In this document: in pieces, positions 1-32,632 of the stretch
Layout: each line of letters starts with the position of its first letter
Numbering within the stretch: position 1 is the stretch's first letter
Assembly: GCF_900104965.1 (NCBI RefSeq)
Contig: NZ_LT629757.1
Location: forward strand, 3,348,001 to 3,412,000
Source: Nocardioides scoriae
Lineage (GTDB): Bacteria > Actinomycetota > Actinomycetes > Propionibacteriales > Nocardioidaceae
Length of the DNA stretch: 64,000 nt
Direction: 5' to 3'
The notes under the pieces: model-generated
Databases searched by the model: none
The model's input: the letters and a program-made list of their open reading frames with translations, nothing else
Told to the model about the DNA's origin: nothing
Translations under genes and position numbers: made by a program

Positions 1-70
1 AACGCTCCGTTACTGCATCTGAGTGCCCCCGGCGACGGGTGTACGCCGCGGGTAACGGAGCGTTACATGC
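1..70 (+). repeat. 76-bp palindromic repeat, copy 1 (left end cut off)
   Basis: This is the first of three near-identical copies; the others are at 7946-8021 and 9231-9306. The full element begins GCATGTAACGCTCCGTT and ends with the exact inverse, so it can fold into a 17-bp terminal stem. This copy lacks its first six bases because the window begins inside it. The interior carries a second short hairpin (CGGCG/CGCCG) around 31-49. The repeat lies upstream of the membrane protein gene at 213. Confidence 0.85.
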
Positions 71-7945: not shown

Positions 7946-8021
7946 GCATGTAACGCTCCGTTCCTGTGCGTGAGTGCCCCCTGCAACGGGTGTACGTCGC
8001 CCGTAACGGAGCGTTACATGC
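7946..8021 (+). repeat. 76-bp palindromic repeat, copy 2
   Basis: A complete copy with perfect 17-bp terminal inverted repeats (GCATGTAACGCTCCGTT and its inverse). The internal hairpin near 7983-8000 is kept with one mismatch. It is in the same orientation as copy 1 and opposite to copy 3. It lies in the 268-bp gap between fbaA and the DUF559-like gene, followed by a short CCGAG-rich simple-sequence tract. Confidence 0.9.
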
Positions 8022-8157
8022 GCCGAGCCGAGCCGAGCCGGCCGAGCCGGCCGAGCCGGGCCGGGCCGAGCCGCTCGATCGTCGTCCACAAGGCCGCCGT
8101 CGGTGCTGGTCGTCCACAGGCCACGGTCCACGGACCGCACGGAGCCTCGGCGCGGCT

Positions 8158-8163
8158 CAGGGT
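8158..8163 (+). promoter_or_regulatory. -10 hexamer CAGGGT, leaderless start
   Basis: CAGGGT ends exactly 6 nt before the GTG at 8170 and fixes the start of the accessory gene, whose frame is otherwise open back through the repeat. Confidence 0.45.
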
Positions 8164-8169
8164 GGCGTC

Positions 8170-9201
8170 GTGCTGCCTGCTCTCGCCCTGCTCGCCGCTC
8201 GCCAGGGCGGGCTGGTCGCGCGTCGGCAGTGCTACGCGGTCGGCATGACCGACGAGGACCTGCGGGCGATGCTGCGTCCTGGTGGTCCGTGGGCAGTGGT
8301 GCGTCGGGGCGCGTACCTCCCGCGTGAGCGGTGGGAGGCCGTCACCGACCCGTGGGAGCGGGTGCTGCTGCGTGACCGGGCCGCCGACCTCGTCATGGAG
8401 ACCGCGCACGTGATGAGCCACGACTCGGCTGCGCGGGCGCTGGCCGTCCCGATGCTGCGACCCCGGGCGCCGCTGGTGCACGTCACCCGGCCGGGGGTGG
8501 GCGGCTCGCGCACGAAGGCCGGGGTCAAGCACCACCTGACCCGCATCGAGCTCGCGGGGCTCCGCGACGTCGACGGCCTGGTCGTCACCGGACCCGCGAG
8601 GACAGCGCTCGACCTCGCTCGCGAGCACGGCCTCGCCGCCGGCGTGGTCGCCCTCGACCACGTGCTGGCCTCCGGCACCGCGAGGCGCGAGGTCGAGGCC
8701 GAGCTGGCGGTGATGTGGTCGTGGCCGCAGGTCAGGACGGCGCGCGAGGCGCTTGCGCTCGCGGACCCCGGCGCCGAGTCGCCGGCCGAGAGCCTGGCCC
8801 GGCTGTTCGTCGGGTCGCTCGGGGTCGGGCCGGTCGAGACCCAGTTCCCGGTCGAGTGCCGCGGCACCGTCTTCTGGGCCGACCTGCGGGTCGGCTGCCA
8901 CGTGATCGAGGTCGAGGGCGTGGCCAAGCTGGTGCCGGTGGGTGACGGTGGCCTCGCGACGAGGTCCACCCGTGAGCTCCTCCGCGCCCGGGAGGAGCGC
9001 GGGCGGCTCATCCGCGCCGCGGGCCTCGGCCTGTCGTACGTCGGCTGGGACGACCTCTTCGGCCGCGCCCGCGAGCACACCCGCGACTGGCTCACCCGCG
9101 ACATCCGCCTCACCGAGCAGCGCCACGGGTCCGAGCTGCCGACCCACCTGGCCGAGCGGGCGGCGTACCTCCGGCGGCACCACCCCCGCCGCCGGTCGTG
9201 A
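8170..9201 (+). CDS. AbiEi-like N-terminus / DUF559 (Vsr-like) C-terminus protein
   Basis: This 343-aa protein resembles a family common in actinobacterial accessory regions and often annotated as type IV toxin-antitoxin AbiEi-like. The N-terminal ~60 residues look like the AbiEi winged-helix start (GGLVARRQCYAVGMTDEDLR, then WAVVRRGAYLP). The C-terminal part contains a DUF559/Vsr-endonuclease-like core with FWADLRVGCHVIEVEG, where an acidic D...E pair would bind metal, and a terminal YVGWDDLF. Two cautions apply: the usual core continues DGxxxH, but here it reads EGVAKLVP, so nuclease activity is doubtful. No partner AbiEii toxin is adjacent. The gene sits alone between inverted copies of the 76-bp repeat, which suggests acquisition. 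Confidence 0.7.
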   Translation: MLPALALLAARQGGLVARRQCYAVGMTDEDLRAMLRPGGPWAVVRRGAYLPRERWEAVTDPWERVLLRDRAADLVMETAHVMSHDSAARALAVPMLRPRAPLVHVTRPGVGGSRTKAGVKHHLTRIELAGLRDVDGLVVTGPARTALDLAREHGLAAGVVALDHVLASGTARREVEAELAVMWSWPQVRTAREALALADPGAESPAESLARLFVGSLGVGPVETQFPVECRGTVFWADLRVGCHVIEVEGVAKLVPVGDGGLATRSTRELLRAREERGRLIRAAGLGLSYVGWDDLFGRAREHTRDWLTRDIRLTEQRHGSELPTHLAERAAYLRRHHPRRRS

Positions 9202-9230
9202 CAGCGGGGCGCGTCGGCGGCCCGCCCGTC

Positions 9231-9306
9231 GCATGTAACGCTCCGTTACCAGCGGCGTACATCCGTCGCCAGGGGCACTCACGCACAGGAACGGAGCGTT
9301 ACATGC
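9231..9306 (-). repeat. 76-bp palindromic repeat, copy 3 (inverted)
   Basis: A complete copy in the opposite orientation to copies 1 and 2. Read on the minus strand it matches copy 2 almost base for base, including the interior CCTGTGCGTGAGTGCCCC. With copy 2 it brackets the gene at 8170-9201 as ~76-bp inverted terminal repeats. Confidence 0.9.
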
Positions 9307-9376
9307 GGGCCGGTCGCCGGCCCTGCCCTGCCCGCCCCACCCACCCGGCCCGCCACCCCCGTGGGAGCATCGGGAC

Positions 9377-31618: not shown

Positions 31619-32632
31619 ATGAAGCCACTGACCAGGGGACGGCCGCAGGCGGCCGTCCGGCCGCCCCGCGCGGCCGCCCACCGCGTCCGCCAGGGCGTCG
31701 CCGTCACGCTGATGGTCCTCGGCCTGGTGGCCGGGGCCTTCGCGGTCCCGGCGCTCGCGGCCGAGGGCGACGCCGTCGACCAGGTGTCGACGCTCGCCGA
31801 CCCGGTCGCCGACCCGCCCGCCGACACCCCGGGCGACCCGGGTGACCCGGGCGGTGGCGGCGGTGGCGGCGGTGGTGGCCTCGACGACCCCTGCACCATC
31901 CTCGACCTCGGCGTCGACAAGGAGCCGGGCATCGACGGCTGCCAGCCGCTGCCCTGCGACAACCCCAACGCGACCAACTGCCCCGACGTGGTCGAGCCCT
32001 GCACCGACGGGGTCGACTACAACGGCGCGGACCAGGACGGCTGCGGCGAGGCCCCCGACAACGGGGGCGGCACGGACCCGACGCCTCCCACGGTCGTGCC
32101 CTGCACGAGCGGCGTCGACTACAACGGCCCGACCCAGGACGGCTGCGGCCAGGCCCCCGACAACGGCGGTGGCACCGGCGGCGGTGGCACGGGCGGTGGC
32201 ACCGGCGGCGGTGGCACGGGCGGCGGCGGCACCGGCGGCGGCACGGGCGGCGGCGGCACGGGCGGTGGCACCGGTGGCGGTTCGACCGGTGGCGGCACGG
32301 GTGGCGGCTCGACGGGTGGCGGCTCGACCGGGGGCGGCACGACCGGCTCCCCGAGCTCCGGCGGCGGCCTCGGCACCGTGTCGGCGACCCCCGAGGGCAC
32401 CGTCCCCGGCGGCGAGGCGGCAGCCCCGGTCTCGGCCTGCGCCGACACCGTGATCTGCCAGTCGGCCCCGGCCGCGGCGACCACCACGTCCTCGACGGAC
32501 GGGCTGCCCGACACGGGCGCCCCGGCCGACGCCCAGGGCCTGCTGGTCCTCGGTCTCGGCCTGCTGGCCGCTGGCGCGTACGTGTCCCGGCCCCGGCGTC
32601 GCGGCGGTCGTCACCGCCTCGTGAGCGCCTGA
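31619..32632 (+). CDS. LPDTG wall-anchored protein with Cys-containing repeats and Gly linker
   Basis: This 337-aa exported protein has a signal peptide with a long basic n-region and cleavage near ALA-AE (about residue 43). A short poly-Gly stretch comes next, then a Cys-bearing region. This includes a duplicated unit reading SGVDYNGPTQDGCGQAPDN in its second copy (about 130-186). A (GGGT)n-type linker of some 60 residues (182-242) leads to a second pair of Cys and a classic sorting signal: LPDTG at 296-300, a hydrophobic helix and an Arg-rich tail. The Asp/Asn-rich duplicate could bind calcium, which I infer from composition only. The gene lies inside the type VII locus and is followed by a strong hairpin. 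The only sortase gene here is class E at 2799. Confidence 0.82.
   Translation: MKPLTRGRPQAAVRPPRAAAHRVRQGVAVTLMVLGLVAGAFAVPALAAEGDAVDQVSTLADPVADPPADTPGDPGDPGGGGGGGGGGLDDPCTILDLGVDKEPGIDGCQPLPCDNPNATNCPDVVEPCTDGVDYNGADQDGCGEAPDNGGGTDPTPPTVVPCTSGVDYNGPTQDGCGQAPDNGGGTGGGGTGGGTGGGGTGGGGTGGGTGGGGTGGGTGGGSTGGGTGGGSTGGGSTGGGTTGSPSSGGGLGTVSATPEGTVPGGEAAAPVSACADTVICQSAPAAATTTSSTDGLPDTGAPADAQGLLVLGLGLLAAGAYVSRPRRRGGRHRLVSA

Follow-up and report, generated by a model that had tools for sequence, protein, structure and literature searches.

Within a 64,000-nucleotide stretch of the Nocardioides scoriae genome (GCF_900104965.1, contig NZ_LT629757.1, positions 3348001-3412000 of a complete 4.06-Mb chromosome; hereafter the window), a single gene for a predicted AbiEi-Vsr fusion protein lies between two oppositely oriented copies of a 76-bp hairpin element. 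We propose that gene and hairpins probably form a set resembling the REPIN-RAYT systems and built on an unrelated enzyme. The gene product is most likely an enzyme cognate to the hairpins, with the hairpins as its substrate, rather than passenger cargo. The evidence computed for this proposal comprises family-wide bracketing, hairpins specific to each gene, dispersed copies, covariation of the hairpin arms, a near-fixed element length and an arm type that follows the gene tree, together with concerted evolution at a few positions, presence or absence at syntenic sites, the predicted fold and purifying selection on the protein.

The bracketed gene and its product

The features of the locus are listed below in window coordinates.

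7946..8021, + strand: 76-bp hairpin element, upstream copy, with 17-bp perfect arms GCATGTAACGCTCCGTT/AACGGAGCGTTACATGC and a variable core
8170..9201, + strand: gene for a 343-residue protein, GTG start, AbiEi fold plus Vsr-like endonuclease domain
8170..8766, + strand: AbiEi-antitoxin-like region, residues 1-199
8779..9120, + strand: Vsr / I-Bth0305I-like endonuclease domain, residues 204-317, with invariant E207, D238, E247, G250, K253 and R277
9231..9306, - strand: 76-bp hairpin element, downstream copy, inverted relative to the upstream copy
1..70 (genome 3347995-3348070), + strand: solitary copy of the window-type hairpin, cut by the window edge

The placement of one gene between oppositely oriented 76-bp repeats, reported in a first-pass annotation of the window, was confirmed, as were its neighbours, with fbaA before the gene and DUF3151 after it. 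Inverted arms of 88 nt with 88% identity were detected around the gene; the upstream hairpin ends 148 bp before the start codon and the downstream hairpin starts 29 bp past the stop. Conserved blocks are present within the otherwise variable hairpin core, and folding as single-stranded DNA gave z values of -8.5 and -7.6 for the two bracketing copies, with none of 200 shuffles equally good. Short GC-rich tandem tracts often border hairpins in the window genome, for example GCCGAGCCGAGCC (window 8022-8072; flanks of L011, L014 and L015).

The predicted structure of the protein (predicted local distance difference test score, pLDDT, 94) consists of an AbiEi antitoxin fold joined to an endonuclease domain of the Vsr/I-Bth0305I type, in which a PD-(D/E)XK-like fold of the Vsr type is present. 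The six residues listed above are invariant across 39 aligned homologues; this, with the Vsr/homing-endonuclease-like predicted fold, does not bear out the earlier impression that the nuclease core was doubtful. Pfam at E 0.01 assigned AbiEi_4 to 35 of the 39 members, AbiEi_1 to the other four and nothing else, and the PADLOC AbiEi profiles matched all 39. A search of NCBIfam gave no match at E 0.01, and a profile search of PDB sequences returned one design protein only, at E 0.5. The protein is under purifying selection, with ratios of non-synonymous to synonymous substitution (dN/dS) of 0.10-0.28 in 14 chosen pairs and 0.43 in the window pair. The absence of a toxin partner held good between the repeats, where the gene stands alone: no DUF1814 nucleotidyltransferase toxin was found there, the neighbours being fbaA and DUF3151 and the rest of the genome not having been searched for DUF1814.

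Bracketing across homologues and paralogues

A covariance model built from 16 hairpin copies and searched against 294 genomes of the family detected elements in 40 of them, with pairs about 1.2 kb apart recurring. Homologues of the protein (38-64% identity) adjoin or sit between such elements, the arms of which differ between genomes and are common within each. A profile of eight proteins (E up to 1e-50) placed a homologue in 140 of the 294 genomes, mostly one or two apiece. For 70 homologue loci (30 given as loci and 40 more by rank, with G209:C13, G230 and G253 skipped and lower ranks left out), the 400 bp on each side of the gene were aligned to each other, with 1500 random block pairs from the window as the null. 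Matching repeats on both sides scored above the 99% point of the null (33) at 61 of the 70 loci and above its maximum (38) at 54; five of the nine loci under the 99% point have direct pairs scoring >33. A TGTAAC arm lies within 330 bp of the gene at 62 of the 70 loci.

Bracketing extends further. Homologues at E up to 1e-30 are present in 11 of 246 genomes across the phylum, counting the window genome. A more distant set, drawn in part from an order sample of six genomes, comprised 23 distinct loci of other genera, of which two belong to the same family; it was compared with a null of mismatched loci (99% point 28, maximum 42); 18 of the 23 scored above the 99% point and 13 above the maximum. 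The repeat at one such locus (L292) is a clean palindrome, ATTGTCGCCCGAAACGTACGG...CCGTACGTTTCGGGCGACAAT, quite unlike the window type, and at an uncultured Isoptericola locus (33% identity) a near-perfect hairpin on one side of the gene is matched by a copy on the other.

The window genome itself encodes seven paralogues (E up to 1e-5), five of which are bracketed, each by a different repeat. Away from their genes, these five repeats occur at 1, 4, 10, 3 and 8 sites at E 1e-3 (1.25 Mb examined) and at 1, 4, 11, 1 and 7 sites at E 1e-8; seven of the ten sites of one of them are identical over 30-35 bp, and reversed queries of the paralogue repeats gave no match. Of 200 random 77-mers used as a control, five occurred at a second site; the most frequently matched of these overlaps an L156-type repeat. 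The L158 repeat, one of the five types, is of tandem type and may be something other than a paralogue hairpin. Repeats of the L156 type also lie near 0.01 and 2.0 Mb. A random 77-mer at about 2819763 of the window genome (G000:C1) has 13 further sites at E<=1e-8, and the repeat there probably represents another repeat family.

Dispersal and evolution of the hairpins

Nine full copies of the window-type hairpin, 76-77 bp long, are present in the window genome, with a tenth, weaker copy at 3766810. An 18-base arm with up to two mismatches gave 15 genome matches, and the same pattern read backwards gave none. All ten copies are confined to 2.60-3.77 Mb of the 4.06-Mb chromosome. Across the family, the bare pattern TGTAACGCN{44,74}GCGTTACA was found in 82 of the 294 genomes, in up to 31 copies, and the reversed pattern once in each of two genomes. 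A homologue is present in 69 of the 82 genomes with elements versus 71 of the 212 without (odds ratio 10.5, p 1.6e-15, uncorrected for kinship). Elements in genomes without a homologue are perhaps relics; G013 retains two elements and a partial match to the gene. The distribution of arm types follows the gene tree: the arm hexamer requires 27 changes on a tree of 62 rows, versus 47 with shuffled labels (minimum 42 of 200).

The elements are constrained in both pairing and length. Among 141 distinct elements from the fetched loci, many of them supplied by a few genomes, positions 9-11 vary yet pair in 91-96% of cases, where chance gives 27%, and 134 of the 141 are 70 or 72 nt long, though 60-76 was allowed. 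By rough open reading frame (ORF) calls, 39 of 42 copies lie outside ORFs and 35 have an ORF boundary, of one kind or the other, no more than 60 bp away. A preference for convergent gene ends was not supported, with 10 copies in convergent, 16 in tandem and 4 in divergent settings, 3 inside ORF calls and 9 unclassified. In G084, one solitary hairpin (element at 1501, L262) lies about 55 bp after a tRNA-Ser gene (1357-1444).

Copies within one genome evolve in concert, even at the same position in two species. At three such positions, paired by flank alignment (two other pairs lay about one gene over), core identity was 0.58 across species, compared with 0.58 for other cross-species pairs and 0.75 within a genome (p 0.003; three positions). 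In G268 (L147-L152), cores occur between the same arms in both orientations, as reverse complements, and with halves exchanged, which is the pattern that copying between hairpins would leave.

The first-pass annotation had read the locus as a non-autonomous mobile cassette. The bracketing behind that reading is real, does not arise at random and is meaningful. Movement of the cassette itself is rare, and it is the hairpin alone that is dispersed. We compared the fbaA-DUF3151 interval within the genus group, which includes Nocardioides aequoreus NRRL B-24464 (G001) and Marmoricola sp. Leaf446 (G009), fetching it from 20 of the 22 other genomes with a DUF3151 match. The gene is in the same orientation in three of the 20, inverted in one and partially matched in one, and 15 have no match; gene and both repeats are thus not at this site in all close relatives, and gain or loss therefore occurs there. 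Among the 45 homologue pairs of highest similarity (about 70-99% identity), 41 have flanking DNA in common on at least one side; the four exceptions all involve L120. The fbaA location requires 5 changes on a tree of 74 proteins versus a shuffled mean of 17.8, and 20 of the 74 loci adjoin fbaA or DUF3151, in both orientations. The hairpin-gene-hairpin cassette is not a frequently moving unit.

Solitary hairpins occupy the same point in some sister species and are missing in others. The joined flanks of one copy in G245 match four element-free relatives (78-91%), with junctions too diverged to read, and at another site the hairpin is whole in G220 and only half of it is present in one relative. 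Six of the 13 fetched copies in G279 (L134, L135, L137, L139, L145 and, more loosely, L143) have common flanks on both sides (...gccga[76]gcgtggaggcggacc...), and a unit larger than the 76-bp hairpin was therefore multiplied there; in L138 of the same genome the left flank only is in common, ending at the hairpin edge.

Elsewhere, about 3 kb of extra DNA lies between the nuclease gene and DUF3151 in G001, G002 and G009 (L232, L233 and L239) and is missing in the window (9307-9376); in G001 it resembles a two-component system, judged by eye. GC-rich tandem repeats with units of 12 and 15 bases occupy window 32116-32374.

Proposed mechanism, rival explanations and known systems

In the set that we propose, a single-copy gene would encode a DNA-binding region of AbiEi fold and an endonuclease domain of Vsr/homing type, with two hairpins bracketing the gene and further copies mostly intergenic. 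The protein would recognise the inverted arms of its own 70-76-bp hairpin, presumably through the AbiEi part, and the Vsr part would nick or cut the hairpin, a cruciform or a target. Repair could then transfer the sequence of one hairpin to another, or place a copy at a new site. Cutting would in this way drive copying, and the protein would spread the hairpin, leaving copies alike within a genome and spreading while the gene stays mostly stationary. We regard as evenly balanced the broader proposal that actinobacterial AbiEi-Vsr fusions form a large unrecognised class of hairpin-copying nucleases, in which each gene has a private hairpin family spread and homogenised by homing-like cut-and-repair, about six independent sets may coexist on a chromosome, and many genes annotated as orphan AbiE antitoxins or as defence genes belong.

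A number of observations weigh against a hairpin-copying enzyme. Bracketing did not exceed the 99% point at two of the seven paralogues in the window genome or at five of the 23 distant loci, and among the distant matches are some GC-rich repeats, less clear than clean hairpins. When hairpins were searched for more strictly, 39 of 74 loci had arms exceeding the shuffle maximum on each side of the gene; none of the four window-genome paralogues included did, their repeats being built differently. Inverted orientation outscored direct in just 24 of 54 loci, so that no family-wide preference for either was supported; many elements are near-palindromic, and the direction of the flanking copies is therefore often ambiguous. 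Thirteen of the 82 element-bearing genomes lack a homologue at E 1e-50, and 71 of the 140 homologue-bearing genomes lack the TGTAACGC pattern, some of these carrying other types. In a second quartet of species the signal of concerted evolution was weaker, at 0.770 within a genome, 0.743 at the same site and 0.696 for other pairs (p=0.45 for same genome versus same site, p=0.09 for same site versus other). No target duplication or clean target consensus was seen at five sites compared with relatives, where divergence is too high to read the junctions.

The leading alternative is an autorepressor that controls a regulon, in which the arms would serve an AbiEi-type regulator as operators at its own and other genes and the nuclease would be incidental or unused on hairpins. 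According to one published account, AbiEi and Rv2827c autoregulate via pairs of 23-bp inverted repeats in promoters, within 131 bp upstream in the case of Rv2827c (PMC7319586). This precedent, the predicted AbiEi fold and an upstream element ending 148 bp before the start codon are all in keeping with regulation. We nevertheless consider a regulon unlikely: a second copy lies directly after the gene, the 42 copies compared with ORF calls lie largely outside ORFs and close to boundaries of either kind, the nuclease residues are invariant, cores between the arms have been homogenised within each genome, and solitary copies occur in some relatives but not in the rest.

Somewhat less likely again is an autonomous transposon, of which the hairpins would be the terminal repeats and the solitary hairpins non-autonomous derivatives. 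Such an element is hard to reconcile with the few location changes, with the common flanks of 41 of the 45 most similar pairs (L120 accounting for the exceptions) and with the number of matches in each genome, in most cases one or two at E 1e-50, beyond which near-identical second copies were not searched for; the window protein, moreover, matched nothing among 50,697 phage records and gave two distant matches among 72,556 plasmid records. The intergenic position of the hairpins, often near a gene boundary, and their very stable folding would also suit ordinary bidirectional terminators or structural repeats spread by recombination, with the gene between two of them by chance. This explanation appears very improbable, given that the hairpin sequence is specific to the bracketed gene in five or six genes of one genome, that arm type follows the gene tree and that matched bracketing recurs in distant families. 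An integron attC site was ruled out by orientation and core sequence, set against the attC consensus, and comparison with RNA families gave one chance microRNA match within an E-value limit of 10, far under the gathering score.

Among the matches listed in a search of the open-access literature (no preprints, few subscription journals), none apparently ties hairpins to AbiEi or DUF559 genes. The window protein shares its AbiEi fold with the AbiEi antitoxin and Rv2827c of the type IV toxin-antitoxin system AbiE, but differs in its extra nuclease domain, the lack of a toxin gene between the repeats and the dispersed hairpins. It shares a predicted PD-(D/E)XK-like fold of the Vsr type with Vsr and with I-Bth0305I, which belongs to the EDxHD class of homing endonucleases; here the domain is fused to an AbiEi fold and the associated DNA is a short hairpin. 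Miniature inverted-repeat transposable elements (MITEs) are short, non-coding, multicopy elements with terminal inverted repeats, and the hairpins resemble classical MITEs in these respects. They may differ in showing no target duplication at the five sites compared, where divergence is too high for the junctions to be read, and they do differ in being tied to a nuclease outside the known transposases.

If the proposed set is real, it suggests a function for genes labelled orphan AbiE antitoxins, a label that the window gene would receive; the concerted evolution of the hairpins yields a testable prediction of mechanism, and a genome with several independent enzyme-hairpin pairs would lend itself to work on sequence-specific nucleases. 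The closest parallel is REPIN-RAYT, a pairing of hairpin-forming REP doublets with REP-associated tyrosine transposases. One account describes it as a single-copy gene with its own flanking hairpins, dispersed doublets, largely vertical descent and a proposed co-evolution of hairpin and enzyme (PMC3116915). In both systems a single-copy enzyme gene has its own hairpins in the flanking DNA, intergenic copies consisting of two inverted halves are dispersed, and some genomes contain several sets that are distinct from one another; at the species level the gene trees are largely vertical, and co-evolution is proposed between hairpin and enzyme. They differ in that the present enzyme, by Pfam and predicted fold, joins an AbiEi fold to a Vsr-type endonuclease and is not a Y1 (HUH) tyrosine transposase, and in that the main-type hairpins are 70-76 bp long, of near-fixed length, found in up to 31 exact-pattern copies and hosted by actinobacteria. 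Copy numbers of REPINs are higher than this. The enzyme is unrelated to RAYT, and the set is therefore not a member of REPIN-RAYT, though it would work like one. Among enzymes retained by their hosts, the one known to go with hairpin repeats of its own is, to our knowledge, that of REPIN-RAYT; if an unrelated enzyme family is indeed organised in the same way, this would mean that the arrangement evolves repeatedly.
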